Part shown: positions 30-21,652 of the stretch, in pieces | How the letters are laid out: each line of letters opens with the position of its first letter | Position numbering within the stretch: position 1 is the first letter of the stretch | From: a virus | Strand: one strand, 5' to 3' | DNA: 23,479 nucleotides | Virus record (IMG/VR): IMGVR_UViG_3300033052_000120 | Span: 1-23,479 of that record | Position numbers and translations under genes: made by a program | Notes under the pieces: model-generated | The model's database searches: none | The model's input: only the letters and a program-made list of their open reading frames with translations | Told to the model about the DNA's origin: nothing

Positions 30-46
30 CCCCTCGACCAGAGGGG
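30..46 (+). terminator. Hairpin in the left leader, terminator-like
   Basis: CCCCTC (30-35) and GAGGGG (41-46) form a perfect 6-bp stem around the loop GACCA, followed by the fairly T-rich TGTTCTT. It could end transcription from genes left of the window, or simply be leader structure. Bases 1-15 are almost pure C, with one A. No gene is visible in 1-153 apart from a poorly supported N-terminal extension of the terminase frame. Confidence 0.35.
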
Positions 47-77
47 TGTTCTTCCGTCCGGTACATGCCCTTCACGC

Positions 78-110
78 CCAAGCCCCCCGCCTGCCGGGTC
101 GGCCGAACCT
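78..110 (+). promoter_or_regulatory. Composite C-rich element, copy 1 (upstream of terminase)
   Basis: CCAAGCCCCCCGCC (78-91), 12 variable bases, then CGAACCT (104-110). It has the same architecture and spacing as the copies at 3827, 9415, 19884 and 21662. It lies 43 bases before the preferred terminase start. Function is unknown; a phage promoter is one hypothesis. Confidence 0.55.
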
Positions 111-153
111 GTCCTCGTCGAAACGGGTCAGGGTCTGGGAAGGCGGGTCAGGG

Positions 154-1683
154 GTGTCTGAGAGCGCTGGCGTCGAACTGCGGAACTACGCGGGGCCAGT
201 GGCTCGTGCGTACGAGCACAACCGGGCTCCGGTGTCCGTCATCGTCGGTCCAACTGGTGGGGGGAAGTCGCAGGCCTCGGCCCGGCGCATCCTCCGCGTC
301 GCTCTCATGCAGCACCCTAGTCCAAAGGACGGGGTGCGCAAGTGCCGCATCACCTGCGTGGCGCCGACCTATCGCATCCTCTGGGACACGGCGATCCAGA
401 GCTACCTGAAGGTGTTTCCCAAGAGCTGGGGGAGGTGGACCGGCGCCAAGGGCGACCCGGCCGAGCACATCTTCGAGATTAGTTTCGGCGGCGCGCGGCT
501 GCACATCGAGGTGATCTTCCGCGCGCTGCGCGAGGAGAGCGCGGAGGAGTTCGTGCGCGGGCGGGAGACCACGGGGTGGTGGTTCCCCGAGATGGACACC
601 ATGCCGGCCGAGGATCTGCTGTCGCTGGCCATCAACCGGGTGGGCCGCTATCCCGAGCCCGACGACAGGTGGGACCCCGACAATCCCGCCCATGCCGCGG
701 TGATCGCCGCCAACGGCTGGCCGCCGGCCTGGAAGGGCGTGTTCGGCGACGCCAACGCCCCGGTCATGGGCGCCTGGTTCCATGACCGCTTCTACCTGCG
801 GCGGGAGAACCGCGACGGCTTCTACGTGCAGCCGGCCGCCCTGCTGGGCAGCAGCAAGGATGGCTACACGCCCAACCCGCAGGCCGAGAACCTGCACAAT
901 CTGCGGCGGATCGACCCGGATTATTACATGAACATGGCGGCGAAAATGTCGGATTACGACATCGCCCGCCTGCTGCAGTGCTTGCCGGGCTGGCCGCGCA
1001 ACGGAAAGCCCGTGTACGAGGACTTCCGCGATGGCTGGCACGTCTCGAACGGCGTGCTGGTCCCCGAACGCGGGCGCAAGGTGATCATCGGCGCCGACGC
1101 CGGCATGACCTTCAAGCCCGCCGCGACTTTCAGCCAGCTGAGCTTCACGGGGCAGCGGCGCGTGCTGGATGAGATCTCGCCCATCGGCCGGGCGCTCGAT
1201 ATCGACGAGTTCTGCGGCGAGATACGCCGCAAGTTGGACACCGAGTTCGCTGGGTGCACGGAAGCGGAGATCACTGTCGATCCCGCCGCCAAGGCCGGCG
1301 TGATCTTCAACCGGTCGATCAGCCACGCCCAGTACATCCAGGCAAAGACCCGGATCGCCACGCGACTGGCGCCAAGCAACAAGCCCGAGGTGCGCATGGG
1401 CGCGGTGACCTCGCGCCTGAAGGCCACCTCGGGCGGCGGACAGCCGGCCCTGTTGATCAGCAGCAGGGCGACTGGCCTGATCGGGGCCTATAGCGGCGGC
1501 TACCACTTCGCCAAGTCGGGAAGCGTCTACCGGCCGTTGCCGGAAAAGAACGAGCACAGCCACGAGGCCGATGCCGATCAGTACGCCGAGTTGGGCGTCA
1601 GCGGCCTGGGCAGCATGGCCGGAGGTTTTATCCCCCCCTCGGCGGCGGCCTCGCACAATGGCCCAGGTGTCATCCTAGACTAG
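154..1683 (+). CDS. Terminase large subunit (DNA-packaging ATPase/nuclease)
   Basis: This is the motor that pumps phage DNA into the prohead through the portal and cuts it at the end of packaging. From the GTG at 154 the product is 509 residues. The N-terminal ATPase domain has a Walker A motif GPTGGGKS (about residues 32-39) and an acidic Walker B-like stretch WWFPEMD (E146, D148). The C-terminal half has the three acidic motifs expected of an RNase H-like nuclease: GADAG (D315), VDPAA (D376) and HEADADQY (about 470-477). The frame is open back to a GTG at 46, but the 36 extra residues look non-protein-like and run over the conserved intergenic element at 78-110. GGGAAGG at 137-143 is well placed for the GTG at 154. 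No small terminase subunit is visible; it may lie outside the window. The family call is firm, the start less so. Confidence 0.93.
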   Translation: MSESAGVELRNYAGPVARAYEHNRAPVSVIVGPTGGGKSQASARRILRVALMQHPSPKDGVRKCRITCVAPTYRILWDTAIQSYLKVFPKSWGRWTGAKGDPAEHIFEISFGGARLHIEVIFRALREESAEEFVRGRETTGWWFPEMDTMPAEDLLSLAINRVGRYPEPDDRWDPDNPAHAAVIAANGWPPAWKGVFGDANAPVMGAWFHDRFYLRRENRDGFYVQPAALLGSSKDGYTPNPQAENLHNLRRIDPDYYMNMAAKMSDYDIARLLQCLPGWPRNGKPVYEDFRDGWHVSNGVLVPERGRKVIIGADAGMTFKPAATFSQLSFTGQRRVLDEISPIGRALDIDEFCGEIRRKLDTEFAGCTEAEITVDPAAKAGVIFNRSISHAQYIQAKTRIATRLAPSNKPEVRMGAVTSRLKATSGGGQPALLISSRATGLIGAYSGGYHFAKSGSVYRPLPEKNEHSHEADADQYAELGVSGLGSMAGGFIPPSAAASHNGPGVILD

Positions 1684-1692
1684 GGCCAGGCG

Positions 1693-2142
1693 ATGAAAAT
1701 TCAGGGCGATCCCGACCACCCCGTGCCGACCATGGCGGTAACCGCCGCGGGCGACGACGTGGCCTATACCGACGTGGCAGGCTATCCGACGACGGCGACG
1801 GTGCTGCAGGTCTCGAGCGGCGTGGTGTCGGCGGCGCCTGCGGTGGCGACGCTGCCTGGGTCACTGGGGGTGACCGCCTATCTGACCGGCTTCGACATCA
1901 GCGGCGCGGGCGCCACGGGCGCCGGCGTAGTGGTGGCGACGATCGCGGGCCTGAGGGGTGGTGCACGGACCATCGTGGTGGCCGTGCCGGCGGGGGTGAC
2001 GGCGGCGCTGCCGCCCGTCGTCCAGCGCTTCGACCCGCCGCTGGTGGCGGCTGGCGAGAACACCGCCATCGTGATCACCGTGCCGTCGCTGGGGGTGGGC
2101 AATACGCACGCTTGCGTCAATGCCCAGGGCTTCGCCGCCTGA
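1693..2142 (+). CDS. Small phage protein of unknown function, probably structural
   Basis: This 149-residue protein is rich in Ala, Gly, Val and Thr, with little predicted helix, no Cys pair and no signal peptide. From about residue 57 it alternates short beta-type hydrophobic runs with Gly/Ala turns and ends in a GNTHACVNAQGF-like motif. This resembles small beta-sandwich proteins encoded near terminase or tail genes in other phages of alphaproteobacteria; that resemblance is from memory of sequence style, not a search. Its TGA overlaps the ATG of the deacetylase-like gene by one base (TGATG), so the two are probably translationally coupled and may work in the same surface structure. It starts nine bases after the terminase stop. 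No enzyme motif is seen. Confidence 0.72.
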   Translation: MKIQGDPDHPVPTMAVTAAGDDVAYTDVAGYPTTATVLQVSSGVVSAAPAVATLPGSLGVTAYLTGFDISGAGATGAGVVVATIAGLRGGARTIVVAVPAGVTAALPPVVQRFDPPLVAAGENTAIVITVPSLGVGNTHACVNAQGFAA

Positions 2143-3815
2143 TGCGTGCTTTCCGCCCCCATCGCGCGCCCGTCCAGCGGGTAATGCGCACCGGAGACGG
2201 CAGCGTCGGCCAGGTCTATTCCCTGAACTTCAGTCGCGGGACCGGCCTGCAGTGGCGCGTTGGCGGGATCAACGTCGCTGGCGCCAACGATCCGACCTAC
2301 ACCGCGCAAGCGGCGGACGAAGGCAAGGTCGTCTCGGTGCTGGATCTGTTCGGCGAGCATGCGATCGAAGTGCGGGCCGCCGGCCCGGTACTGGCCGCGC
2401 CTATCCTGGTGGAGGGCTTCAACGCCACGACGGGGTGGACGGCCAGCGCCGGGGCGGTTCTGACGGCTGACGGGGCCAGCAAGGTGCAGGGCGCCGCCAG
2501 CCTGCAGATCGCCGGCACGGGCACGACCTCGCCCAAGGCGACCAAGGCCAGCATCGGGGCGTGGACGCCCTCGGAACTGGGCGTTCTGGCCTGGTGGTTC
2601 CGCCTGGAGACCGATCCCAACAAGCAAAGCACCTCGTCGGTGCGTTGCTGTTTCGTCGACGAGGCGGCGACCGAACACTGGATCTCGGGCGTGAGCGGCA
2701 CGCCGGCCCTTTACCAGACGCCCGCGGCGCTGTTCGTCGGCGACTACTGGCACGCCTATCACATCAGCGACCTGCCGGCCCTGGCCAGCCAGGGCGCCCA
2801 GACGCTGGGCCTGGCCGTCACCGCCGCCAGCAACGTGCCCAGCAATGCGGCCGTGCGGGTTGACGCTCTGATGGCCAAGGCGGGTGGTCGGCCGACCGTG
2901 ATCATCGGTTTCGACGACTGCTACGCCACCCAGTTCACCCTGGGCCTGGAGATCCTGAAGGCGCGGGGCCTGAAGGCCAGCGCCCATGTCGCACAGGGCT
3001 ATGTGGGCGGTTCGGGCCGCATGACCCGCGACCAGCTGGACGTGCTCTATCGCGATCACGGCTGGGACCTGTGCGCCAACAGCACCGACGACGGACCCTT
3101 CACCGGCAAGGGCAGCGTGGCGGCCGCCGTGGCCGACCTGGTCGCCGATCGCCAGTATCTGCGCGACAACGGCTGGGATCGCGGCGCGGACTTCGGCTGC
3201 TATCCCAACGGCGCGATCGCGACGAATGGCGCGCGGGTTCTGGTGAACAGTGTGACGTCCACGGGAGATGAAAACATCGTCCTGGGCGCGGCGTCGCCTA
3301 CGGTCCAGGCAGGCTGGGAGGTGGAGGGCTACAACGTGCCGTCCGGCACGACCGTCCTGGCTGTCACCGACAGCACGCACTTCTCGCTGTCGGACGATGT
3401 TCCGGCGCAGACCAAGCCCATGTCGTTCACCGCCCCGGCGCCTTTCGGCGTGGGCAAGTTGCAGGCGGCCCTTATCGCCGCCGGCTTCAGGCAGATGCGC
3501 ACGACCCTGAACCGGGGGCACGTGCACACGCGCTTCGGCTGGGCCTGGCACTGGATGCTGTTCCACGGCAACGCCACCAGCGGCCTGACCATCGCCGCAT
3601 TCCAGGCCCTGGTCGACAAGACCATCCAGCTGGGCGGCACGCTGGAGCTCTACACCCATGGCCTGGTGGCGGGCGGCGGAGGCGGGCACACCGATCCGGC
3701 CTTCTACGCCCAGGCGATGGACTACGTCGCCGCCAAGCGAGACGCTGGCCAGCTGGACGTGCTGACCAAGTCGGAGCTGTGGGCGCGCGATGGTCGTTCC
3801 AGCGTGCCGGTCTAG
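2142..3815 (+). CDS. Tail/surface protein with NodB-like polysaccharide deacetylase domain
   Basis: The product is 557 residues from the ATG at 2142, chosen because it overlaps the previous stop as TGATG; ten upstream codons are open but add no recognisable sequence. Residues about 35-70 look like an Ig-like phage domain (QWRVGG...YTAQAADEGK). Residues about 80-245 are beta-rich and carbohydrate-binding-like. From about 252 comes a NodB-type fold: VIIGFDDCY (D258, D259) matches motif 1, YPNGA (354-358) matches a later strand, AALIAAGFR (442-450) follows, and YTHGLV (504-509) replaces the final His motif. The usual metal-binding H-x3-H of motif 2 appears to be N313 and D317, so catalysis is doubtful. 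A beta-rich segment (about 368-433) interrupts the domain. The likely role is binding or trimming capsule or exopolysaccharide. Location in the virion is inferred. Confidence 0.8.
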   Translation: MRAFRPHRAPVQRVMRTGDGSVGQVYSLNFSRGTGLQWRVGGINVAGANDPTYTAQAADEGKVVSVLDLFGEHAIEVRAAGPVLAAPILVEGFNATTGWTASAGAVLTADGASKVQGAASLQIAGTGTTSPKATKASIGAWTPSELGVLAWWFRLETDPNKQSTSSVRCCFVDEAATEHWISGVSGTPALYQTPAALFVGDYWHAYHISDLPALASQGAQTLGLAVTAASNVPSNAAVRVDALMAKAGGRPTVIIGFDDCYATQFTLGLEILKARGLKASAHVAQGYVGGSGRMTRDQLDVLYRDHGWDLCANSTDDGPFTGKGSVAAAVADLVADRQYLRDNGWDRGADFGCYPNGAIATNGARVLVNSVTSTGDENIVLGAASPTVQAGWEVEGYNVPSGTTVLAVTDSTHFSLSDDVPAQTKPMSFTAPAPFGVGKLQAALIAAGFRQMRTTLNRGHVHTRFGWAWHWMLFHGNATSGLTIAAFQALVDKTIQLGGTLELYTHGLVAGGGGGHTDPAFYAQAMDYVAAKRDAGQLDVLTKSELWARDGRSSVPV

Positions 3816-3826
3816 CGCCTGGAGAC

Positions 3827-3859
3827 CTAACCCCCCCGCCTTCCTTCCTGCCCGAAGCT
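3827..3859 (+). promoter_or_regulatory. Composite C-rich element, copy 2
   Basis: CTAACCCCCCCGCC (3827-3840), 12 bases, CGAAGCT (3853-3859), then seven bases to the ATG at 3867. The 14-base first half is identical to those at 9415 and 19884. The upstream gene stops earlier, at TAG 3813-3815, so the TAA here is not kept because it is a stop codon. Confidence 0.65.
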
Positions 3860-3866
3860 CTGTCGC

Positions 3867-4070
3867 ATGAGCTTCCTCCGCGCCCCGAAGGCCCCCGATC
3901 CGCAGGCGACGCCCGACCCGGCCGACGCCGCCAACCGCGTAAACGACGCCCGGCGCCGCCGCGTGCTGGGCGGCGGACGCAACGCCACCGTGCTGGGCCA
4001 GATGGTCGAGGGCGCATCGGCGGGCGGGGGCAGCCCCCGCACGCTGACCGGCCTGAACCCCGGCGGCTGA
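3867..4070 (+). CDS. Small pre-portal protein, function unknown
   Basis: This 67-residue protein begins MSFLRAPKAPDPQ and ends in a Gly/Pro/Thr-rich tail (RTLTGLNPGG). A short protein with this kind of start (MSF-x-PK-x-P-x-P) and a Gly-rich end commonly sits directly before the portal gene in podoviruses and related phages; its role is not established. It is highly charged in the middle (NDARRRRVLGGGRN) and has no membrane segment. The ATG lies seven bases after the composite regulatory element and there is no good SD. The portal start follows 14 bases after the stop, so both are likely on one transcript. Confidence 0.75.
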   Translation: MSFLRAPKAPDPQATPDPADAANRVNDARRRRVLGGGRNATVLGQMVEGASAGGGSPRTLTGLNPGG

Positions 4071-4084
4071 GCGGAGGGCGGGGC

Positions 4085-5755
4085 GTGGCCGAAGACTTCA
4101 AGGCGATCCGTCGCGAGTGGGACCACCTGCAGACCTTGCGCGCCACGCGGGACAGCGAAATGCAGCAGATCGCCGACGTGTTCATGCCGCGCAAGTCGTT
4201 CATCTGCACGCCCCAGCAGGGCCAGCTGCGGCCGCGCATGGTCACCACCAGCAAGCCGATAGAGTGCCTGAACCGCAGCGCGGCCATGCTGGTGGGCTAT
4301 CTGATCGACCCTACGCGGCCGAACATCCTGCCCAACGTCGATCGAGGCCTGGTCGCGGCCGGTCGCCAGACCGAGCTGGATAGCGAGAGCCGCGACTACC
4401 TGACCGCCACCGGCTGGACCATCCATGACCGCATGATGCTGGCCCAGAGCAAGTTCTTCGCCAGCCTGGCGCGCGTGGCGCTGGAAATGGTGGGTTTCGG
4501 CACGGGCGTTCTATGGACGGGGCGCAAGCGCGGCTTTGGGCCGATCTACGCCGCCAGGCCGCTTCGCAACTGCTGGATCGCGGAAGACGAGGAACAGGTG
4601 GTCGACACTCTGTTCTTCCGCTGGACCATGCCGGCCTGGAAGGTGGTGGAGAAGTACCCGGAGGCGGTCAAGGTCGAGAAGTTGGCCAAGATGGCCAGCG
4701 ACGAGAAGACCCAACAGGCGGCGGTCACCTTGCTGCATGCCGTGCGTCCGCGCATCGGCGGCGAGGTCGGCGCCTTCGCCGGCCGCAAGCCCTGGGCCAG
4801 CGTGGTGATCGCGCCGGACTTTGACGGCGGCGTGCTTGAGATCGGCGGCTTCGACAGCTTCCCCTTCGCCGTGCCGCGCCTGGGCGTCGAGGAGGGTAGC
4901 GCCTACGGCACGGGCCTGGCCTGGCGGGCGCTGCCGACGGCGCTGGTGCTGAATGACCTGCAGGGCAGCGTCGAGCGCGGCGTGGCGGGCCGGGTTGAGC
5001 CGGCGATGTTCGCGCCCAGCCGCTTCCTGACCAAGGCGCTGGATCGTCGCCGGGGCGCCGTCAACTATTATGACGAGAGCGGCCTGGGCTTTCAGAACCT
5101 GAAAGACGCGATCCAGTACCTGCAGCAGGGCGGCGATGTGGGCATCGGCGTCGACTACATGAAGATGCTCGGCCTGGACCTGGAAGAGGTGTTCCTGACC
5201 GACTGGATGAAGCTGCGCGAGAACGGCAACGTCACAGCCGAAGAGATCATCGAGCGTCGCAACCTGCGCACCCGATCGCTGGTGGCCTATGTGCCCAGTG
5301 TCGATCGCGACCTGATGGGCGTGACCGCCGACCGCACGCTTGAGGCCATGGTCGCTGAGGACCAGCTGCCGGTGACCCCCGACCAGTTGGATGGCGTGGA
5401 GGTCGACTGGGAGTACGGTGGCCCTCTGGCCGTCGCCCAGCAGCAGGGGCAGAAAGACGCCGTACGCGAGCTGCTGGGTGTGGCCCAGATCGCTGTCAAC
5501 CTGGATCCCGAAAGCGTCGACGTGCTGGCCCTGGACGAGGGTCTGCGCGCCGTGGCCGAAGCCGTGGCGGCGCCCGCCGGCCTGCTGCGCAGCCGCGCCG
5601 ACGTGGACGCCCGCCGACAGGCGCGCCGAGAGGCCGAGGCGGCGCAGCGTGAGGCAGAGATGGCAGCCCAGGCCGGGGCCGCGGTGCGTGACGCCGCCCA
5701 GGGCGTCAATAGCCTGGCGCAGGCCGCGCAGGGCGACATGAGTATGGCGGCCTGA
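4085..5755 (+). CDS. Portal protein (T7-type head-to-tail connector)
   Basis: This forms the dodecameric ring at one capsid vertex through which DNA is packaged and ejected. From the GTG at 4085 it is 556 residues, typical for the T7 gp8-like head-tail connector family. Family-like features are the N-terminal REWDHLQ...IADVFMPRK segment, the long alpha/beta core, and EEGSAYGTGLAWRALP (about 269-284), which corresponds to the conserved Y-G-x-G segment of the family, followed by a TAEEI..RR helix. The last 50 residues are an Ala/Gln/Arg-rich helix. The frame is open far upstream, overlapping the small pre-portal gene, but the extension is implausible. GGAGGG at 4073-4078, six bases before the GTG, decides the start. 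Confidence 0.93.
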   Translation: MAEDFKAIRREWDHLQTLRATRDSEMQQIADVFMPRKSFICTPQQGQLRPRMVTTSKPIECLNRSAAMLVGYLIDPTRPNILPNVDRGLVAAGRQTELDSESRDYLTATGWTIHDRMMLAQSKFFASLARVALEMVGFGTGVLWTGRKRGFGPIYAARPLRNCWIAEDEEQVVDTLFFRWTMPAWKVVEKYPEAVKVEKLAKMASDEKTQQAAVTLLHAVRPRIGGEVGAFAGRKPWASVVIAPDFDGGVLEIGGFDSFPFAVPRLGVEEGSAYGTGLAWRALPTALVLNDLQGSVERGVAGRVEPAMFAPSRFLTKALDRRRGAVNYYDESGLGFQNLKDAIQYLQQGGDVGIGVDYMKMLGLDLEEVFLTDWMKLRENGNVTAEEIIERRNLRTRSLVAYVPSVDRDLMGVTADRTLEAMVAEDQLPVTPDQLDGVEVDWEYGGPLAVAQQQGQKDAVRELLGVAQIAVNLDPESVDVLALDEGLRAVAEAVAAPAGLLRSRADVDARRQARREAEAAQREAEMAAQAGAAVRDAAQGVNSLAQAAQGDMSMAA

Positions 5756-8815: not shown

Positions 8816-9418
8816 ATGCCCAGCCGCGAAAGCGTCGTGAACGGAGCCCTGCGGTGGCTGGGCGAGGAGTTGACCGAAACCCTGGACGTGAGCGTGGCGC
8901 GCGAGGCGGTGCGCAAGGTGCTGGCGTTCATGGACAAGGCGCGCGATCGGGTGCTGGTCGCCCAGGACTGGCTGGATGCGCGGGATTATCTGACGCTGCA
9001 GCCTTCGGCCGTGCCGGGCAACTGGCGATGGCCAGTGTGTTACCTGTTGCCGGCCGACGCGCTGATGGTGCGCGAAGTGGCCGGTTGCGGCGCCTGGGAG
9101 CGCGGCGTGGTCAGGGATTTCGCCACGGGGGCCGAGCAGCGCGTGATCCGGGCCTTGGGCTCGGCGGAGGCGCGCGTTGTGGTGACGCGGCGGATCGACT
9201 GGGCGGCAATGCCGACCTATCTGGACGACGCGCTGGAGTTGACCCTGGCGGCCATGGCCTGCCTGTCGGTGAACGGTGACGAGGGTAAGATGGCGCGGCT
9301 GGAGAAGAGCGCCCGCGAGGCCATCGGCGACGCCCTGGGCAAGGACGGCGTGCAGACCGTGCCCATCGACCCCTTCTTGCCCGACCCCTACGGGGCGTTG
9401 CGCCGCTCGGCGAGCTAA
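8816..9418 (+). CDS. Tail tubular protein A (gp11-like head-tail adaptor)
   Basis: This 200-residue protein resembles the T7 gp11 family, the gatekeeper ring that joins the portal to the tail nozzle. Family-type features are the start with a small helix bundle (VVNGALRWLGE), the segment FMDKARDRVLVAQDWLDARDYLTLQPS, where many homologues have 'R..vL..hpW..A', then a beta-rich middle (NWRWPVCYLLPADALMVREV) and the paired helices near LDDALELTLAAMACLSVNGDEGKMARLEKSAREAI. It ends in a Pro-rich tail with FLPDPY. The following gene is the B protein, as in T7. GAGAGG at 8805-8810, five bases before the ATG, fixes the start. Its TAA stop is also the TAA of the next composite element. Confidence 0.87.
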   Translation: MPSRESVVNGALRWLGEELTETLDVSVAREAVRKVLAFMDKARDRVLVAQDWLDARDYLTLQPSAVPGNWRWPVCYLLPADALMVREVAGCGAWERGVVRDFATGAEQRVIRALGSAEARVVVTRRIDWAAMPTYLDDALELTLAAMACLSVNGDEGKMARLEKSAREAIGDALGKDGVQTVPIDPFLPDPYGALRRSAS

Positions 9419-9447
9419 CCCCCCCGCCTGCGCCCGCGCGGGAAGCT
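9415..9447 (+). promoter_or_regulatory. Composite C-rich element, copy 3
   Basis: CTAACCCCCCCGCC (9415-9428), 12 bases, GGAAGCT (9441-9447), five bases, ATG at 9453. The TAA doubles as the stop of the upstream gene. The spacer contains the palindrome CCCGCGCGGG. Confidence 0.65.
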
Positions 9448-9452
9448 GGGGC

Positions 9453-11729
9453 ATGGCCAAGCACATCGGGTGGAAAAACAGGTTCAACGCCGGCGAGCTG
9501 TCGGACGAGGCCTGGTCGAACAGCGACCTGCAGCAACACGCCAACGGCGTGGCGATGGCGCTGAACGGAATGCCGCGTGCCCAGGGGCCGATGGCCAAGC
9601 GCTACGGCTTCTGGTTCGCGGGGTTGTGCCGCAACCAGTTGACGGCGACCAGGCCCATTCCCCTGCGCCGATCTGTCGATGATGCCTACATGGTCGAGCT
9701 GGCCGACGGGGTGGCGCGGGTGCGCGACGCCCTGGGCGCGCCGGTGCTGGTGGCGGGCGTGCCTTTGGAGTTCGCCAGTCCCTTCGCCGCGGCCGACCTA
9801 GCGGGGCTGCGGTGGGTGCAGACGGGCGACGTTGTGGTGTTCTTCCATGCCGACGGGCGCCGGCCGCGGCGTCTGCTGCGCGGGGCGGACGGGACGTGGA
9901 GCTTCGCCGTCTACAGCTTCGACAACGGTCCGTGGCGGACAGAGAACCTGGACGACACCTTCACCATCGCCGCGAGCGCGATCCGTGGCGCAGTGACGCT
10001 GACGGCAAGCAAGGAGCTGTTCCAGCCGGGCATGGTGGGCACGCGGTTTCGCCTGCGCAGCCCGCAGGGCAGCATCGGCCTGAACACCTGGGCGCCGGAC
10101 GTCGATCCCCAGGACCGCGAACTGTATCTGGCCAACGGCCGCGCCTACTACACCAGCACCAGCAACGGCAGCACCAAGACCGGCACCACCATGCCGATCC
10201 ACGAAAAGGGCACGGTGAGCGACGGCAACCTGCCGTGGACCTTCCTGCACGACGGCGCGGGGGTGGTGGAGATCACCGCCGTGACCGATGCATTCACCGC
10301 CTCGGCGACCGTGATCCGTACGCTGCCCTATCAGGCGACCAAGACCTATGATCCCGCGTCGACCTATGCGTTCGACGCCACCAGCAGCTGGGCCGAGGCG
10401 GCCTATAGCGACTATCGAGGATGGCCGACGGCCTGGCCGGCGGTGCGCGAGGAGCGCCTGGTGGTGGCCGGCAACGCCAGCGAGCCCGACAAGTTCGACG
10501 CCAGCCGCACCGCGGGGTTCGACACCGCCAAGGCCGACTTCACCCCCGGCCTTGGCACGGGGCGGGTGGTCGACGACGACGCCGTGCGCGGCTTCTGCGG
10601 CGACGAAAGCAGCAAGGTGGCGTGGCTGATCAGCGCGGGCCAGTTGCTGGCGGGGACGCACGCGGGCGAGAACGTGATCGCCGGCGCCACCCTGGACGAG
10701 CCCCTGACGCCCGAGGGGCGCAAGGTTCGCGGTCTGACCGACTATGGCTCCCAGCCCGGCGCGGCGCCGGTGAAGGCCCATGATGCGGTGCTGTTCGTGG
10801 CGCGTGGCGGGCAGACCCTGCGCGAACTGGTGGTCAGTGGCGAGTTGTCGGTGGCTGGCGGGGACCTGTCGTTCCTGGCCGAGCACATCGCCGGGCGCGG
10901 CGTGGCGGAGTTGGCCTGGACGGGCGAGCCGGACAACATGCTGTGGGCGCGCCTGGATGATGGCGGCTTGGCTGGGTTTCTGTATCACCGCGAACAGCGG
11001 GCTTTCGGCTGGGCCCGGCAGGCGCTGGCCGCCAGGGTCGCCGACGAGGCCGACGCCTCGCCCTGGACGGTGGAATACATCGCCGCCCTGCCGGGGGCGC
11101 AGGGCCGCACGGCGCTGTGGCTGCATGTGATGCGCGTCAAGAACGGCGCGCCCCAGCGCATGATCCTGATCCAGTCGGGGCGGCGCGAGACGATGCGGCT
11201 GGACGCGGCCGGGCGCTATGCCGGCGCGCCTGTCAATGCGGTGGCGGGCCTGGACCACCTGGCCGGCGAGACGGTGACCCTGATGGCGCGCGACGCCCAG
11301 GGGCGCTGGGCGCAGTATCGCGACTGCCTGGTCAGCGATGCGGGCGTGGCGACCCTGCCTGGTGATCGTACCTCGGGCGAGATCGTGGGCGGCCTGCCTT
11401 ACCTATGGCGGGTGGAGGGGCTGCCGCTGGATCTTTCCGGCCCGGGAACGACGCAGGGGTCTCGCACGCGGGTGGTCGCGACCATGGTGGTGATGAAGGC
11501 GGTCACCGGCCGGGCCGGCACGATGATCGACGGTGACCCGCCCAGCCCCCTGGACCCGTTCGGCCTGCGGGGCCTGGATGAGACCAGCGGCCTGGTCGAA
11601 AAGCGCATGGCCGTGAAGGTGACCAACATGGCCGGGGCCAGTCGCGATCCACGCTGGGTGGTCGAGGACGACAGCGGCTTCGACGCGGTGCTGCACGCCC
11701 TGCGTCCGGTGGGCTACGCCAATGACTGA
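9453..11729 (+). CDS. Tail tubular protein B (gp12-like tail nozzle)
   Basis: This 758-residue protein is close in size to T7 gp12, which forms the hexameric nozzle of the short tail. The N-terminus has the family hallmark: a FNAGELS motif, followed by a helix with ANGVAMALNGMPRAQGPMAKRYGF, matching the usual 'NF.AGELSP...C.ne...pqGp..rRpGt.f' pattern. The rest is a long beta-rich protein with repeated short strands, fitting a beta-propeller-like body. The frame is open upstream into the previous gene, but the hallmark motif begins right after the ATG at 9453, which lies five bases after the composite element, so that start is preferred. The last eight bases overlap the next gene. Confidence 0.9.
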   Translation: MAKHIGWKNRFNAGELSDEAWSNSDLQQHANGVAMALNGMPRAQGPMAKRYGFWFAGLCRNQLTATRPIPLRRSVDDAYMVELADGVARVRDALGAPVLVAGVPLEFASPFAAADLAGLRWVQTGDVVVFFHADGRRPRRLLRGADGTWSFAVYSFDNGPWRTENLDDTFTIAASAIRGAVTLTASKELFQPGMVGTRFRLRSPQGSIGLNTWAPDVDPQDRELYLANGRAYYTSTSNGSTKTGTTMPIHEKGTVSDGNLPWTFLHDGAGVVEITAVTDAFTASATVIRTLPYQATKTYDPASTYAFDATSSWAEAAYSDYRGWPTAWPAVREERLVVAGNASEPDKFDASRTAGFDTAKADFTPGLGTGRVVDDDAVRGFCGDESSKVAWLISAGQLLAGTHAGENVIAGATLDEPLTPEGRKVRGLTDYGSQPGAAPVKAHDAVLFVARGGQTLRELVVSGELSVAGGDLSFLAEHIAGRGVAELAWTGEPDNMLWARLDDGGLAGFLYHREQRAFGWARQALAARVADEADASPWTVEYIAALPGAQGRTALWLHVMRVKNGAPQRMILIQSGRRETMRLDAAGRYAGAPVNAVAGLDHLAGETVTLMARDAQGRWAQYRDCLVSDAGVATLPGDRTSGEIVGGLPYLWRVEGLPLDLSGPGTTQGSRTRVVATMVVMKAVTGRAGTMIDGDPPSPLDPFGLRGLDETSGLVEKRMAVKVTNMAGASRDPRWVVEDDSGFDAVLHALRPVGYAND

Positions 11730-12120
11730 TCTGGCGCTGCGCGCTTACGCCTATGCCGACGAGCTGCTGGTGGCCGCCCGCGAGGACTTCGCCGAGCAGA
11801 TCGGCCGCGAAGGCGGCTTCGTGCCGGAAGGGCCGAAATGGACGGTGATGGCCGGCGGCCAGGTGGTGGGCGTGGCGGGGCTGGAGCATCAGGGCGGCCA
11901 GCGGTGGAGCGCGTGGGCTTACATGGCGCCGCTGGGGCCGCGTCAGTGGCTGGCGGCGGGAAGGATGGCGCGCGAGCGCTTGACGGGCCTGGAATGGCTG
12001 GCGCGGCGCATCCTGGCCGTGCCCACGCCCGATCCCAAGCATCATGCCGCCGCTGTGCGGCTTCTGAAGCGTATCGGCTTCGTCGAGGTCGGCGAGCCCT
12101 ACATGGTCTGGGAGGGGTGA
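11722..12120 (+). CDS. gp13-like internal virion protein with GNAT-like fold
   Basis: This 132-residue protein overlaps the nozzle gene by eight bases. It looks like a small GNAT acetyltransferase-type domain: a central strand pair (KWTVMAGGQVVGVAGLE), a helix (AAGRMARERLTGLEWLARRIL), and the C-terminal AAVRLLKRIGFVEVGEPYMVWEG, which matches the common GNAT ending 'A..ly.k.GF.......m'. A clear R/Q-x-x-G-x-G/A acetyl-CoA loop is not obvious, so catalysis is uncertain. T7 gp13 lies in the same position, after gp12 and before gp14, and its family is GNAT-like; by position and fold this is its counterpart. GGAGGGG inside its 3' end serves the next gene. Confidence 0.72.
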   Translation: MTDLALRAYAYADELLVAAREDFAEQIGREGGFVPEGPKWTVMAGGQVVGVAGLEHQGGQRWSAWAYMAPLGPRQWLAAGRMARERLTGLEWLARRILAVPTPDPKHHAAAVRLLKRIGFVEVGEPYMVWEG

Positions 12121-12121
12121 C

Positions 12122-12622
12122 GTGGACCCGACGATGATCACGGCCGGGATCTCGGCCATTGGCAACATGCTGGGGGGCGTTGGCCAGTTCGCCGCCAGCC
12201 GCGGGCGCGCCCGGGCCCTGCGCGCGGCCGGCCTGCAGGCCAGGCGCGAGGCGGGGATCGAGGCCGGGATCGCCCTGGAAGAGGGCGACCGCGCCGCGGC
12301 TTCGGCGGCCGTGCAGGCGGCGGCCGGCGGCGGCGGGCTGACGGGCAGCGCGATCACGGCCCTGGACGACCTGGCTGGCAGCGCGATGTTCAATGCCCGC
12401 AGCGCCATCTATCGCGGCGTCGCCGAGGGGCGGAACCTGGATTACGAGGCCAAGGTGGCCAAGCGTCAGGGCGAGCTGGCCCTGGTGACCGGCTGGCTGG
12501 GGGCGACCGGGGCTGCCGGCAGCGCCCTGGGCGGCATGCAGGCGCGCCGGCAGGCGCGCCTGGACGCGGCGCGCTCGCGCAGCTGGAACAGCCGCGCCGA
12601 CGGCGGGCGGGGGGTCTACTGA
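12122..12622 (+). CDS. Internal virion protein B-like (gp14-type ejection protein)
   Basis: This 166-residue, Ala/Gly/Arg-rich, mostly helical protein is of the gp14-like kind that is ejected first and forms the outer-membrane pore in T7. It has an N-terminal hydrophobic Gly-rich segment (MITAGISAIGNMLGGVGQFAASRG), a long charged helix (RREAGIEAGIALEEGDRAAASAAVQAAA), a Gly turn with 'G.LTGSAITALDDLAGSAMFNARSAIYRG' and a second hydrophobic Gly/Ala segment (LVTGWLGATGAAGSALGG). The pattern 'helix, A..G..L.GS....' is shared by many podovirus gp14-like proteins. The start is GTG at 12122 with the strong SD GGAGGGG (12111-12117). It is coupled to the next gene by TGATG. Confidence 0.78.
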   Translation: MDPTMITAGISAIGNMLGGVGQFAASRGRARALRAAGLQARREAGIEAGIALEEGDRAAASAAVQAAAGGGGLTGSAITALDDLAGSAMFNARSAIYRGVAEGRNLDYEAKVAKRQGELALVTGWLGATGAAGSALGGMQARRQARLDAARSRSWNSRADGGRGVY

Positions 12623-14688
12623 TGGCGATCCTTCCCCGATCGGCGCCGCGCGCCGAGCGTCCCTCGACGGCGCAGGTGGATTACGGCGGCGTGGCCCAGG
12701 GCCTGGATGCGCTGGCGCGCGGGGCGGCGGCCTATGCCGAGGTGGGTCTCAAGCGCAAGGCCGATGAGGCCGACCGCTGGGCCGATCAGCAGTTTCAGGC
12801 CTGGCGGACCGAGAACGATGCGCGCCTGGCCAGCGCCCAGGCCACCTATGACGGCGCAGAGCCTGGCCTGACCGAGCGTGGGCTGGCCGAAACCGACGCG
12901 TCCTTCTCGCCCCTGATCGGTGGCGAGGGCGATCTGATGCGCCGTGACGCCCTGCAGCGGCGTTTCGATGGCTATCGGGGGGCGGTCGGCAACAACCTGT
13001 CGCAGATCGAAGCCGCGAAACGGGCCGAGCCGCTGGCGCTGCAGGCCAAGGCGCGCGAGGACGCCGAGGCGGCGGTGGACGAGATCGCCTTTGGCAGGCT
13101 TTTCGAGACCCGCCAGACCGCGCGACGGACGGGCGGCCTGGGGGCGATGACCGCCCAGGGGCGGCTGGATGATTTCGACGGGGCGCTGCAGGAGGCGCTG
13201 AAGGCCACGCCAGAAGCGCGACGCCCGCGCCTCGAGGCCGCGATGGCCTCGCGCCGCGCCGACGAGTTCGCCAAGGGGCAGCGCGAGGAGCGGGCCGCCA
13301 CCCTGGGCCTGGTGGCCCAGACGGCGACGCAGGGTCTCGATACGTTGAGCAACACGCTGCTGAGCAACCCCGGCGCCTATGGGGAGGCCAAGGCGCTGCT
13401 GCCGCGCCTGTCGGCCGGCATTCCCGATCCGGAGACGCGGGCCAAATTCGAGTTCGAGGCGCGCGGCGTCGTGGCCGGTTCTTACGTGCAGGGCCTGATC
13501 AACGAGGGGCAGTACGGATCTGCCAAGGCGCTGCTGGATGGCGGGACGCTGGACCGTGATCTGGATCCGTCGCGAAAGCAGGCCTACCTCCAGCAACTGG
13601 CCGTGGCCGAGCGGGTGGGCAAGCGGCGCGCCCGGATCGCGGTGGGCGGTAGTGGCGACGATGACGACGACGGCGGCGGCTGGAACGGCGCCAGCCTGCC
13701 GGGCGGCCCCAGCTTCGAGAACCTGAAGAACGGCTACGCTTCGGATCCGATCAAGTATGCGGTCAAGAAGGGCAAGGCGCCGGTCGAGGCCATGGACCCG
13801 AACATGGGCCTGGTGGACGGCGCCGGCGCAGGCGCGTGGGGGGCGACGCTGCAGCAGCGCCGGGCGGTCGGTGTGGAGCTGCATCGCGCCGACGGTGTGC
13901 AGCAGCGCATGCTGACCAACGCCGAGGTGACGTTCTACAAGGACGCGTTCGAGCGGGATCCCACGGCACGCTATCGTGTGGCCGAGGAGGCGCGGGGAGC
14001 GATCGGCGGCCAGGGCGCACAGGATCTGCTGCGCGAGATCGGCGTGGGAGATGAAGCGCCGGTCACGGCGGTGATCGCGCACCTGGCGGCGGGGGGCAGT
14101 CGCAAGTTTGCCGCCGACGCCCAGCGCGGGCTTGGCCTGAAGGCGCAGGGCGCGGAGTTGACCGCGGTCGAGAGGCGGGCTCTGACGGCGACGTTCGAAC
14201 CGTATCGAGGCAGCTTCAGCGCCGTGCCGGAAACCTTCCTGGCGGCCCAGCGCGCGGCCGAGGCGGCCTATCTGGCCGACAAGGCCAGCGGAACCCTGGC
14301 CGAGCCCGACTACTACGCCTTGCGGGCGCTGGGCGGCGTGCGGGTGAACAACACCACCTATGGCGGCGGCGCGACGATGCGTCGTCAGGCAACGGTTCTG
14401 CCTGGCTGGCTGAACCCGGACTATGCGGACGACGCCCTGCGGACCCTGGGCGACGTGTGGGCCAAGGGCGAGTTGGGGCCGCGGTTCGGCAACGGCGAAA
14501 AGATGACCGCCGCCCAGATCGGCAAGCTGGCGCTGAAGGTGACGCCAAGTGGCTGGTACCAACTGGTCAACGACAAGGGGCAAGTGGCCCTGCGCAAGAA
14601 CGGACAGCCGTTCATGTTCGACATGGATCGCGACCGCGCTTTCCTGGGCAAGCGCCTGGGTGGCAAGGCCGTTCTGGGGGCGAACTGA
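12622..14688 (+). CDS. Internal virion protein C-like (gp15-type ejection protein)
   Basis: This 688-residue protein follows the gp14-like gene as in T7, where gp15 forms part of the periplasmic ejection tube. It is strongly helical and Ala/Arg/Glu-rich for the first 330 residues (coiled-coil style), followed by a short acidic linker of five consecutive Asp between Gly runs (GSGDDDDDGGG, bases about 13650-13680), then a second helical half and a beta-type C-terminal end (SGWYQLVNDKGQVALRKNGQPFMFDMDRDR). No lytic transglycosylase or other enzyme motif is seen. The ATG at 12622 overlaps the upstream TGA by one base and is preceded by a G-rich stretch. A long open frame on the opposite strand is a GC-driven shadow. 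Confidence 0.8.
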   Translation: MAILPRSAPRAERPSTAQVDYGGVAQGLDALARGAAAYAEVGLKRKADEADRWADQQFQAWRTENDARLASAQATYDGAEPGLTERGLAETDASFSPLIGGEGDLMRRDALQRRFDGYRGAVGNNLSQIEAAKRAEPLALQAKAREDAEAAVDEIAFGRLFETRQTARRTGGLGAMTAQGRLDDFDGALQEALKATPEARRPRLEAAMASRRADEFAKGQREERAATLGLVAQTATQGLDTLSNTLLSNPGAYGEAKALLPRLSAGIPDPETRAKFEFEARGVVAGSYVQGLINEGQYGSAKALLDGGTLDRDLDPSRKQAYLQQLAVAERVGKRRARIAVGGSGDDDDDGGGWNGASLPGGPSFENLKNGYASDPIKYAVKKGKAPVEAMDPNMGLVDGAGAGAWGATLQQRRAVGVELHRADGVQQRMLTNAEVTFYKDAFERDPTARYRVAEEARGAIGGQGAQDLLREIGVGDEAPVTAVIAHLAAGGSRKFAADAQRGLGLKAQGAELTAVERRALTATFEPYRGSFSAVPETFLAAQRAAEAAYLADKASGTLAEPDYYALRALGGVRVNNTTYGGGATMRRQATVLPGWLNPDYADDALRTLGDVWAKGELGPRFGNGEKMTAAQIGKLALKVTPSGWYQLVNDKGQVALRKNGQPFMFDMDRDRAFLGKRLGGKAVLGAN

Positions 14689-16616
14689 TGGGCAGCATCC
14701 TTTCCGCCCTGCCGGTGGAGCCGCGCCGGCAGGGCCAACCGGCTCAGCCGATCGCGGCCCCGGTGGGCCGCATCGAGGCCTTCCGCAGCAACCTCGACGC
14801 CCAGGTGCAGCTCTACAACACCGACGCGCGCCAGGAGCGCGCGCGCCAGGACCTGATGGCGCGTCACCGCGACATCGAGCGGCGGGTGGGCAAGGCGCTG
14901 CCGTGGTCGGCGTTCATGCAGGCGGGCGAGCCGGAGGCGGCCGGCGGCGCGGCGGACGACGATCTGGGGTTCAATCCCGGGCGCGAGGCGCTGGAGCGCC
15001 AGCTGGGCTTGCGGCCGGCGGGGGCGCTGGACGAGGCGGCCTATGAAGCGCAGATCGACAAGCTTCGCGAACAGCACCCCCAGGCCATGGCCGGGGTGAA
15101 GGCACGCGGCGAACTGGACGCCGAGCGTGACCGTGGGTTCAACGACCTGGCCAGGCGCGCGGCGGCGGGCGCGGAGGCCGCGCCGGTGAGCGCCTTCGCC
15201 GGCAGTGTGGCCGGCGGCCTGCTGGACGCGCCGAACCTGCTCGCCGGGTGGGCGACCGGCGGCGTGGGCGCCTCGCGCGGGATGGCCCAGCGGGTGCTGA
15301 TGCAGGGCGGGGTGAACGCCGCCCAGGAAGCGGCCATGACGCCGGGGCGCATCAGCGACGCGCGGTACGGCGGGCCAAAACCGACCGTGGGTGAGATCGC
15401 CGGCAATGTGGTGACGGCCGGGGTTGGCGGCGCGGCGTTCGAACTGGGCGGCAGCGCCCTGGGCGCTGCGCTGCGCCGCGTGACCCCCGCGCGCGAGACG
15501 GCGCAGGCGCGGGCGGTCGAGGTGCTGGAAGACATCGAACGCATGGAGACGGCCGTGGGCCGTCAGGATGGCGAGGTGTTCGACGCGGCGACGGCGGCGC
15601 TGGCTCGTGGGGAGGATCCGCGCGCGGCCGTGGTGGAAATGAGATCGCGGGCGGGCGAATTCGTCGTTGAGCCGGGGCCTGACAATTCGTTCTTCGTGTC
15701 GCCGACCGAAACGACGGCCAGGCTGAACGGCTTACGCACGACCGATGGCCTGTTTGGCTGGGTCGAGGACGGGCGGTTGAGGATTGAGAGCGCCAACCTG
15801 CCTGAGCATGCGCGAGGCGTGGGCTTGGGTGTTGGGGCCTATCGTCAGGGCATTGCCGAGGCCAGGGCGCGCGGCGTCGATTTCGTCAGCGACCAGGAAG
15901 TCAGCGCTGATGCGCAGCGCGTGTGGGCGTCGCTAGGGCGGCGCGGGTATGCCGTCGAGCAGAACTCGGCGGCGGTCGTCGTTGACCGCCGGGGCATGCT
16001 GAGGACGCCCGATGGATCGCCAGTGTTTCGGATTGGGGCCGAGAGCATACAGGCGGTGGCGCCCGCGCCGCCCGTCATGGTCCGCTCGCCCCTGGAGGCC
16101 GAGGTGCTGAAAACCCTCGCCGCCAAGCCCGGCCGCCTGGAGGCCGTGGCGCGACAGGGCGACGCGATCGAGGCGGCCGGCGGCGGCCTCGCGGCCGATC
16201 CTGTGGCGGCCTCGGCGGCCGTCGAGGGGGTGGCGCTGGCGGTGCTGCGGCGTGGCGATCGGGGCGTGGCCAAGGCCCTGGCGGGGGCCGAGGAGAAACT
16301 GGCGGCTGGGGCGAGCCTGGCCGAGGTGGCCCCGGGCGTGGCCAGGGCCGTGCGGGCGGCGGCGCGGCAGGCCGAGAAGGTGGAAGCCGCGCGCGCGGCG
16401 GCGATCGACCCGCCGGCCGCGCCAGAGGCGGCGCGCGCCCAGGCCGAGGCGTTCGGTGATCCGTTCGGGCCGGCGGCGCAGGCGCAGATCAGGCCCAAGC
16501 CCGAGGGCGCGGACCTGGAGGCCGGCAAGGGGCCGCCGGGCATGCTGGATGATCTGGAAGCGCCCGACACGTACGAGCGCGCCCACGCCGCCCTGAAGGC
16601 CTGCGCCCCGGGCTAA
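14688..16616 (+). CDS. Ejection protein with embedded GNAT-like acetyltransferase domain
   Basis: The product is 642 residues from the ATG at 14688, which overlaps the previous stop (TGATG); the frame is open 77 codons further upstream inside the previous gene, but the coupling favours this start. Order of parts: a basic/helical N-terminus; a hydrophobic Gly/Ala-rich segment (about 165-265) of the kind seen in ejection proteins that enter membranes; a GNAT-like domain (about 320-430) with LPEHARGVGLGVGAY, whose RGVGLGVG (376-383) fits the acetyl-CoA binding loop, then VSDQEVSADAQRVWASLGRRGYAVEQ, the typical 'S.....A..vy..LGrrGY' ending; and an Ala/Glu/Arg-rich helical tail. Position suggests it replaces part of T7 gp16. 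Whether the GNAT domain is active is unknown. Confidence 0.75.
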   Translation: MGSILSALPVEPRRQGQPAQPIAAPVGRIEAFRSNLDAQVQLYNTDARQERARQDLMARHRDIERRVGKALPWSAFMQAGEPEAAGGAADDDLGFNPGREALERQLGLRPAGALDEAAYEAQIDKLREQHPQAMAGVKARGELDAERDRGFNDLARRAAAGAEAAPVSAFAGSVAGGLLDAPNLLAGWATGGVGASRGMAQRVLMQGGVNAAQEAAMTPGRISDARYGGPKPTVGEIAGNVVTAGVGGAAFELGGSALGAALRRVTPARETAQARAVEVLEDIERMETAVGRQDGEVFDAATAALARGEDPRAAVVEMRSRAGEFVVEPGPDNSFFVSPTETTARLNGLRTTDGLFGWVEDGRLRIESANLPEHARGVGLGVGAYRQGIAEARARGVDFVSDQEVSADAQRVWASLGRRGYAVEQNSAAVVVDRRGMLRTPDGSPVFRIGAESIQAVAPAPPVMVRSPLEAEVLKTLAAKPGRLEAVARQGDAIEAAGGGLAADPVAASAAVEGVALAVLRRGDRGVAKALAGAEEKLAAGASLAEVAPGVARAVRAAARQAEKVEAARAAAIDPPAAPEAARAQAEAFGDPFGPAAQAQIRPKPEGADLEAGKGPPGMLDDLEAPDTYERAHAALKACAPG

Positions 16617-19948: not shown

Positions 19949-21652
19949 ATGACTGTGAATGTCGAAAATCCGGATACCATCCTGTTGCCGACCGGAGCCG
20001 CGCTGGGGCCGTTCTCAACCGTCTGGAGTTATGCTGCGCCTGAAGAGGTGCTGGTCGTGATCGAGGTCGACGGGGTGGAAGGCGAGCCCCTGGCGCTGGG
20101 TGTCGACTATACCGTGCTCGGCGTTCCTCGCGAGGCGGGCGGTAGCACCGGCGAGGTCACGCTGCGTGGGGCGGCTCTGCCTGGCGGGGGCTGGCAAGTG
20201 CTTGGCGAGCATCGCCTGATCCTTCGGCGCCGGACGAACCGTTCACAGTCGACGCCTTATGGGCAGGTCGAGGGTTTTCGCCCGAGGGTGGTCGAGATCA
20301 GCTTCGACGACTTGGTGCGCCAGGTTCAGGAACTTACCGCTCTTGTCGCCCGCGCGGTGCTGGGCCAGGCGGGCGAGCGGGGGTTGAACCTGCCGGCGCC
20401 TGGGCTGCGGGGCGATGGGCGATACCTGACCTTCAAGGATGGTCAACTGGCGACAGCGGGGGCGGTGGCCGCCGGCCAGCTGGCCAGCGATTTTGGGCAA
20501 GAACTCATCCTGTCTGAAACGGGCGCGGCCGCGCGGACCGTGCTCGGTGTGGCGGGATCGACCGATGGGACGAAAAGCTGGCTGGGAGAAACTGCGCTCA
20601 CTGGAAATGCGGGGGCCAACAATACCGTGGTCGGCTATGGCGCGGGGGCTTATGGCTCGGGCGGGTTGATGTCTGTGCTTGGTCAGGGCGCGAACATGTT
20701 CGCAGGCGGAGATTTCGCGTCGGCCGTTGGGGTGACCAGCAACATCTACGCTTCGGGGGCCGCCCGTACGAGCATTGGCGCTTTGGCGGGGCGGTTGGGC
20801 TACGGCGGCTATACGGTATCTCTGGGCTTTGCGGCGGGGCAGGGTCTCGATGGCGAGAACAATATCTGCATCGGCAATCATGCGGGCAGCCCCACCCGGC
20901 TGGCCTATCCGCTGAGCGGTCTTGGTGTGGATCCGGTGCTGAACCGTATCACCAGCAACACGCCGGCTTTGAGCGTGCCGACGGATCTGGCCATCGGTCG
21001 GTACTATCGTCTGCAGTTCGAGAACGGCGCGGGGACTGCGCCAGCGCCGTTGGCGTCGGTCAGCACCTTGGTGCGGCTGATCAGCAACGCTGGCGGCGTA
21101 TGCGTATGGCAGGCGATTGACGTGGATATCACGACATCCGGGGCGGGCGCTTACACCTGCGGCCTATGCTTCGCCCATTATGACGGCCAGATCAGTATCG
21201 GCGACAGCGCGTTCGCTGGACCGAACGAGGCTCGCCACGGGTTTTCGAATACCCGGTGGCTTCTTCCGAGCCTGGGCGCCGTCAACGTGGTTTCCATGGG
21301 GCGCTCGCCGTATGAGACCGACGATGTCTATCCCACGATCGAGCGGTGGCGCAGCTTCTGCTTCCGCTGGGGTGGGCTGTTCAGTCTGGCGGGGGAGCCT
21401 ACGTGGCTGGACCTCGGGGTGGGCGATGTGCGGCGCTGGCGGGCGCTGCTCGATGTGGGTGGAGACCTTTCCATCGTTCGGTTCGACATGGCGGGCGTTA
21501 GCCAGGGAGCGGTGCTGACCTTCAAGGCCGACGGTCGCATCGCCACCTCGGGGACGCCTGTCTATGCCGATAACGCAGCTGCGTTGGCCGGCGGCCTTGT
21601 GGCGGGGGATGGCTATCGGACGGCCTCGGGGGTCAGGATGGAGGTCTATTGA
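19949..21652 (+). CDS. Tail fibre protein (T7 gp17-like N-terminus)
   Basis: This 567-residue receptor-binding protein follows the ejection proteins, as in T7. Residues about 1-150 resemble the T7 tail-fibre attachment domain: a strand-rich start (GPFSTVWSYAAPEEVLVVIEVDG), then DYTVLG...GEVTLR, and LILRRRTNRSQSTPY. A coiled-coil-like stretch (FDDLVRQVQELTALVARAV) follows. Residues about 225-312 contain repeated short segments such as NTVVGYGAGAYGSG, SVLGQGANMFAGGDFASAVG and VSLGFAAGQ, similar to the left-handed beta-roll repeats of YadA-type heads. The C-terminal domain is beta-rich with Trp and Cys, and the end YADNAAALAGGL..GD.YRTASG is a common phage fibre C-terminus. The ATG at 19949 has no strong SD. 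Receptor specificity cannot be read. Confidence 0.87.
   Translation: MTVNVENPDTILLPTGAALGPFSTVWSYAAPEEVLVVIEVDGVEGEPLALGVDYTVLGVPREAGGSTGEVTLRGAALPGGGWQVLGEHRLILRRRTNRSQSTPYGQVEGFRPRVVEISFDDLVRQVQELTALVARAVLGQAGERGLNLPAPGLRGDGRYLTFKDGQLATAGAVAAGQLASDFGQELILSETGAAARTVLGVAGSTDGTKSWLGETALTGNAGANNTVVGYGAGAYGSGGLMSVLGQGANMFAGGDFASAVGVTSNIYASGAARTSIGALAGRLGYGGYTVSLGFAAGQGLDGENNICIGNHAGSPTRLAYPLSGLGVDPVLNRITSNTPALSVPTDLAIGRYYRLQFENGAGTAPAPLASVSTLVRLISNAGGVCVWQAIDVDITTSGAGAYTCGLCFAHYDGQISIGDSAFAGPNEARHGFSNTRWLLPSLGAVNVVSMGRSPYETDDVYPTIERWRSFCFRWGGLFSLAGEPTWLDLGVGDVRRWRALLDVGGDLSIVRFDMAGVSQGAVLTFKADGRIATSGTPVYADNAAALAGGLVAGDGYRTASGVRMEVY

Follow-up and report, generated by a model that had tools for sequence, protein, structure and literature searches.

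Can a phage protein with the fold of a polysaccharide deacetylase still bind a metal and act on sugar polymers once the H-x3-H pair of its metal site has gone? The question is raised by a 557-residue protein encoded near the left end of a 23,479-nucleotide stretch of viral DNA (IMG/VR record IMGVR_UViG_3300033052_000120, positions 1 to 23,479; hereafter the window). The ATG of its gene overlaps the stop codon of the upstream ORF by one base, and the local gene order is terminase large subunit, 149-aa ORF, the gene itself, head-tail adaptor/portal and major head protein. The relevant features are as follows, with residue numbers referring to the 557-aa protein.

46-1683, plus strand: terminase large subunit, open at the left end of the window (PHROG 2, E 1.6e-10)
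1693-2142, plus strand: 149-aa protein directly upstream, a candidate partner, without a PHROG match
2142-3815, plus strand: gene of the 557-aa protein (translation gives 557 residues)
2142-2387, plus strand: residues 1-82, a possible virion anchor (pLDDT under 50)
2394-2879, plus strand: residues 85-246, predicted jelly-roll domain similar to carbohydrate-binding modules (model and structure comparison)
2889-3812, plus strand: residues 250-557, predicted NodB-fold (polysaccharide deacetylase) domain (Pfam, profile search, two models and structure comparison)
2910-2918, plus strand: motif 1, F257-D258-D259, intact (sequence and alignment)
3078-3092, plus strand: motif 2 site, N313-S-T-D-D317 in place of the H-x3-H of CE4 (sequence; a strand ends at 313 in both models)
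3198-3212, plus strand: motif 3 region, C353-Y-P-N-G357, without the Arg (alignment)
3222-3437, plus strand: residues ~361-432, beta-rich segment inserted into the barrel following motif 3 (models and alignment)
3531-3533, plus strand: R464 in T-R-F-G, invariant in 8/8 homologues (alignment)
3657-3659, plus strand: motif 5 H506, invariant in 8/8 homologues (alignment)
3779-5755, plus strand: head-tail adaptor/portal ORF, true start uncertain (PHROG 332, E 6.7e-71)

The Pfam profile PF01522 (Polysacc_deac_1) matches residues 248-361 with an E-value of 0.0019 and 18.6 bits, below its curated cut-off of 23.1, so that the fold assignment from this one sequence was weak and models were needed. An AlphaFold2 model of the whole protein, built from 13 aligned proteins, has a mean pLDDT of 71.3 (block means 86-97 within residues 241-310), and a model of the domain alone (11 proteins) has a mean pLDDT of 80.7. 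Structure prediction had been among the checks proposed in the first-pass annotation, and both models yielded a NodB barrel, CE4/NodB structures filling the top of the structure comparison with the domain model. The barrel strands end at residues 258, 313 and 505 (the last just before H506), which is where motifs 1, 2 and 5 belong; the motif-2 loop itself is moderately modelled, with block means of 67 (residues 311-320, whole-protein model) and 77 (domain residues 71-80, domain model). The prediction of a NodB fold for residues 250-557 is therefore firm. Known structures of carbohydrate-binding modules align to model residues 83-256.

Most of the relatives came from searches with alignments. 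Neither P0001, used as a single protein against viral_contigs and genome_contigs, nor P0002 and alignment A1, used against viral_contigs, returned a relative; alignments A2-A6 did. The alignment-led scans yielded L008, L015, L020, L026, L028 and L032, and tblastn yielded the near-identical Rhizobium phages RHph_I38 and RHph_I40, which were counted once (RHph_I40, L001); together with the window these make up the set of eight used below. Pairwise identity among the eight within the domain ranges from 25.2 to 50.4%, with a median of 30.8. The insert of ~70 residues between motif 3 and the next helix is present in seven of them (the window, L008, L020, L026, L028, L032 and RHph_I40) and is missing from L015, as well as from the haloarchaeal rows and the phage G row of the alignment.

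The closest structure known comes from an archaeal virus. The best match of the whole-protein model was gp31, the turret head protein of Haloferax tailed virus 1 (HFTV1; PDB 8QPG), with a Z-score of 27.3 and an rmsd of 4.7 A over 341 aligned residues (model residues 85-550), followed by CE4 enzymes at Z about 16; the higher score of 8QPG in this comparison comes partly from the alignment of two domains. With the domain model 8QPG was again first (Z 20.2; rmsd 2.5 A over 203 residues), followed by 3RXZ (Z 18.2), HP0310 (Z 17.2) and a tied group that includes PdaC (Z 16.6), the allantoinase PuuE (3CL6, Z 16.5) and SpPgdA, and a search of PDB sequences with the profile of alignment A7 placed 8QPG first as well (E 1.6e-17). 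The HFTV1 protein is described as a trimer mounted on the capsid hexamers, each chain combining a galactose-binding-like with a deacetylase-like domain, in which zinc was assigned from ligands and geometry in the map and the activity was predicted (PMC12494034). The protein of the window likewise has a jelly-roll followed by a NodB-fold domain, although identity is only about 14%, gp31 is shorter (413 versus 557 aa), HFTV1 is an archaeal siphovirus while the window has a gene set like that of short-tailed phages, and gp31 retains H-x3-H with its modelled zinc where the window protein has N313 and D317.

This match bears on the place of the protein in the virion. The first-pass annotation had named it a deacetylase-like tail protein, of which the fold has held up and the word tail has not fared well: the gene lies in the head and packaging block, between terminase and portal and away from the tail genes of the window (8816-11729), and the nearest solved structure, for the whole protein and for the domain alone, is that of a capsid turret. 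Head or packaging genes also adjoin the homologue in five of the eight members (the window, RHph_I40, L028, L020 and L008), which is why we favour a role in the head; in the other three the gene lies elsewhere, beside lysis-like ORFs as judged by eye (L015 and L026) or beside a DNA polymerase (L032). On the strength of one structural match and the gene order, our first guess is that the protein perhaps forms a capsid turret. Against this, an enzyme acting on glycans at the tail tip or baseplate, like the minor-tail 'glucosaminyl deacetylase' of Gordonia phages, is a serious possibility that comes close to an even chance, given that Gordonia and Arthrobacter phages have distant homologues under the names minor tail protein or glucosaminyl deacetylase and that residues 485-555 are matched by PHROG 11373 ('tail protein', E 4.7e-05). 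In turrets of the HFTV1 type, the trimer is carried by a hexameric base protein on the capsid hexamers. When the small upstream ORFs of the window, RHph_I40, L008, L015, L020, L021, L026, L028 and L032 were compared by phmmer in search of a shared turret base, none matched another; HFTV1 gp30 was not in this set, and a common base may still exist. The 149-aa upstream protein of the window had a single Pfam match, below the cut-off, which we take to be due to chance.

Farther along the window, the ORFs at 12622-14688, 14685-16616 and 19949-21652 are large members of the virion block without PHROG or Pfam matches, the last of which resembles a tail fibre by eye. A 132-aa ORF at 11722-12120, between the tail genes and the genes for internal virion proteins, resembles a small acyltransferase by eye and likewise had no PHROG or Pfam match.

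The motifs of the NodB domain are unevenly kept. The assignments made from the sequence alone, FDD at residues 257-259 as motif 1 and N313-x3-D317 instead of H-x3-H in motif 2, agree with the residue numbering. The tandem Asp of motif 1 (D258-D259) is invariant in all eight homologues. The motif-4 Asp was not recognised in the 557-aa protein, and by analogy R464 might stand in for the absent Arg of motif 3. In CE4 this motif reads Arg-Pro-Pro-Tyr-Gly, or Ala-Tyr-Pro-Tyr-Gly with the Arg coming from elsewhere, and in NodB2 proteins the motif-3 Arg is described as being contributed by a different segment of the protein (PMC10967932). The possibility that another histidine stands in the metal site, named in the first-pass annotation as the counter-case, was set aside at the level of the sequence: of the nine histidines within residues 241-557 (282, 306, 413, 460, 462, 470, 475, 506 and 516), only H506 is kept in all eight rows, while H462, for instance, is kept only in the window, L008 and L015. 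Because the CE4 definition fails at motif 2, we do not class the 557-aa protein as a CE4 member, although it may work like one.

Both motif-2 histidines are absent from all eight members, which conform to the pattern [D/N]-x-[T/P]-x-[D/N]. The motif begins with Asn in the window (NSTDD), L008 (NFTND) and L026 (NGTPD) and with Asp in RHph_I40 (DSPSD), L020 (DGTSD), L028 (DSPND), L032 (DATPD) and L015 (DSTPN), so that the position of the first histidine is N in 3/8 and D in 5/8 and that of the second is D in 7/8 and N in 1/8. In the eight-row alignment, just four of the 221 gap-free columns are restricted to D or N, namely 258, 259, 313 and 317, which in CE4 are the positions of catalysis and metal binding; none of 20,000 within-row shuffles, which ignore relatedness, produced even one such column. 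With pairwise identities as low as 25.2% and no higher than 50.4%, this retention is not due to recent descent alone. Among six H-x3-H rows, restriction to D or N is confined to the columns of the two motif-1 Asp and of the Asn that precedes the first His. The fold is a known one and the conserved motif-2 variant within it is real; as far as sequences can tell, the missing histidines suggest an altered metal site rather than random loss.

Outside the eight, the 26-row motif table holds seven rows with H-x3-H (five haloarchaeal proteins, Bacillus phage G and HFTV1), two with H-x3-E (L021 and L023, with the acid at the second position), eight that keep the first His but have Y, D, Q or N instead of the second (Gordonia, Arthrobacter and TM7 phages) and one with neither (LT985570). 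Pseudomonas phage Hadban was left out of the table, as its motif 2 could not be registered; L023, a near copy of L021, was left out of the trees and L022, which looks identical to L023, out of both. L025, L027, L029-L031 and L033-L036 were not counted, being on the same contigs as rows already included.

The reading of motif 2 depends on its register. In 8/8 members the first motif-2 position comes six residues after the beta-3 glycine, as it does in those H-x3-H rows that have this glycine. An hhalign alignment of the two groups, which used a single gap on either side, gave another result: here N313 is matched to the conserved Asn preceding the first His, and S314 to the His itself. Read this way, the place of the first ligand would be taken by S, F, G or A, leaving only the second-position acid. 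We prefer the gap-free register with N313 and D317, with slight uncertainty, because of the fixed count from the glycine and because L021 shares this register with H first and E second. In L015, the alignment was moved by one residue to set an Asp at column 317; ungapped, this row has Asn there and Asp next. A tree that included the motif united the eight in one clade (83/85 support), yet once the motif-2 loop had been cut out and HFTV1 added, they grouped in only 5% of bootstrap trees (14% without two long rows), which leaves a single shared invention of the variant unsecured.

What might such a site do? Our best explanation, held tentatively and a little short of an even chance, is that the 557-aa protein is a glycan-binding and probably glycan-modifying component of the virion with a metal site made of oxygen ligands. 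The jelly-roll domain would hold a glycan of the host surface, and the NodB-fold domain would modify it, probably by removing acetyl groups. In the rebuilt metal site, N313 and D317 would take over from the two histidines beside the motif-1 residue D259; Mg, Ca or Mn would fit such a set of ligands more readily than Zn. D258 would serve as the base and H506 as the acid, as in CE4. The retention of D258, D259 and H506, together with the restriction of positions 313 and 317 to D or N, fits a functional site better than decay. Asn is a poor metal ligand, and its presence at the first motif-2 position in 3/8 members counts against an oxygen-ligand site, as do the missing motif-3 Arg, the unrecognised motif-4 Asp, the moderately modelled motif-2 loop and the register shift in hhalign. 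Of the two options raised in the first-pass annotation, other metal ligands or mere binding of polysaccharide, the former gains from the D or N at both positions in all eight members and from the invariant DD and motif-5 His, and the latter is the main rival. Its further suggestion that the target is a capsule or a holdfast-type polymer gained nothing, as none of our results points to a holdfast or to a particular capsule.

Under that main rival, which we consider less likely but still a real prospect, the domain has lost both metal and chemistry and only binds an acetylated polysaccharide of the host surface. The loss of the motif-2 histidines and of the motif-3 Arg would agree with this, as would the attached jelly-roll domain with its similarity to carbohydrate-binding modules, and there are precedents: the entry titles of BA3943, a protein of CE4 fold, call it a pseudoenzyme, and BA0330 and BA0331 are described as CE4-fold proteins without deacetylase activity (PMC4505593). 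A dead site, however, need not keep D258, D259 and H506 invariant in 8/8 members or hold its altered positions to D and N, and BA3943, which is described as departing in motif 1 and keeping motif 2 (PMC6115787), shows the reverse of the pattern found in the window. Less probable by far is a hydrolase that works without metal, in the manner of PuuE, which has been described as a non-metal-dependent enzyme of NodB fold (PMC10967932). The PuuE chain does match the domain model (Z 16.5), but in a tie with ordinary metal-dependent CE4 enzymes, and no PuuE row appeared in the A7 profile search of PDB sequences at E 0.01; moreover, PuuE acts on a small molecule, whereas a glycan-facing virion protein with a jelly-roll points to a polymer, and the retained D/N pairs suggest a role as ligands. 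Finally, it is very doubtful that [D/N]-x-[T/P]-x-D-[D/N/G] is a structural calcium-binding loop that stiffens a sugar-binding surface without any catalytic metal, since, despite an apparent likeness of its spacing (D/N at position 1, T at 3, D at 5) to the D-x-[DN]-x-D calcium loops and a D at position 6 in 5/8, position 6 also admits G, N and F, position 3 is Pro in 2/8, and the fixed D258, D259 and H506 would be left unexplained.

If the oxygen-ligand site does bind a metal, it would represent a natural change of ligand set in a much-studied carbohydrate-esterase fold with the rest of the active site intact, and a caution that such phage genes should be neither labelled Zn deacetylases nor written off as dead; a protein that is only a binder would exemplify the way in which phages convert sugar enzymes into receptors. 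Through the kinship to a capsid turret of an archaeal virus, it can also be tested whether phages of bacteria carry head proteins that act on glycans. The wider proposition, that one phage lineage of NodB-fold virion enzymes has exchanged the histidine zinc site of CE4 for an all-oxygen D-[D/N]-D site (Mg, Ca or Mn) and that bacterial phages, like archaeal viruses, mount a glycan-modifying turret on the capsid, is an unlikely one on present evidence.

Among known systems, the CE4 esterases (PF01522; PdaC, SpPgdA) share with the window protein the NodB barrel, the motif-1 DD, the motif-5 His and the order of motifs, but differ in having the motif-2 His and the RPPYG Arg of motif 3, while the PF01522 score of the window protein is below the cut-off. 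The closest annotated relative found is the 'CE4 superfamily protein' of Rhizobium phages RHph_I38/RHph_I40 (QXV73679.1; 27% identity over 351 aa), which has a D/N motif 2 (D-x3-D) and the insert, and whose gene lies two ORFs downstream of the terminase; unlike the window protein, it has D at the first ligand position (N in the window), belongs to an Autographiviridae genome and is annotated only as CE4 superfamily or hypothetical. With PuuE allantoinase, a small-molecule enzyme without a virion context, the window protein shares the NodB fold, and the match is at the level of the fold only. The deacetylating tailspike of phage Aristophanes was dropped as a relative, as it is described as an SGNH hydrolase (PMC8471582). 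In the open-licence literature we found no paper on a NodB polysaccharide deacetylase in a phage tail and, for such deacetylases in phage virions, only a paper on a defence system.

Several other phage proteins depart from the canonical motifs in their own ways. The 'glucosaminyl deacetylase' or 'esterase' proteins of Gordonia and Arthrobacter phages are phage-borne and, like the window protein, have the NodB domain after a long N-terminal part, but they keep the first motif-2 His in 7/7 rows, the second position being Y, D or Q. In five of these seven rows (L006, L009, L010, L011 and L014), where the second position is Y or D, another His follows three residues further on, and to judge from the motif these proteins may have an altered site too. 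The phage NodB proteins with H-x3-E are encoded at 2846-4270 in both L021 and L023, and the next ORF downstream codes in each for a large terminase-like protein, confirmed as a terminase by PHROGs for L021. An 814-aa phage protein (L024, LT985570.1, 836-3280) has a C-terminal NodB-like domain with F-D-N as motif 1 and without the motif-2 His; its motifs make it a likely true pseudoenzyme and hence a contrast case.
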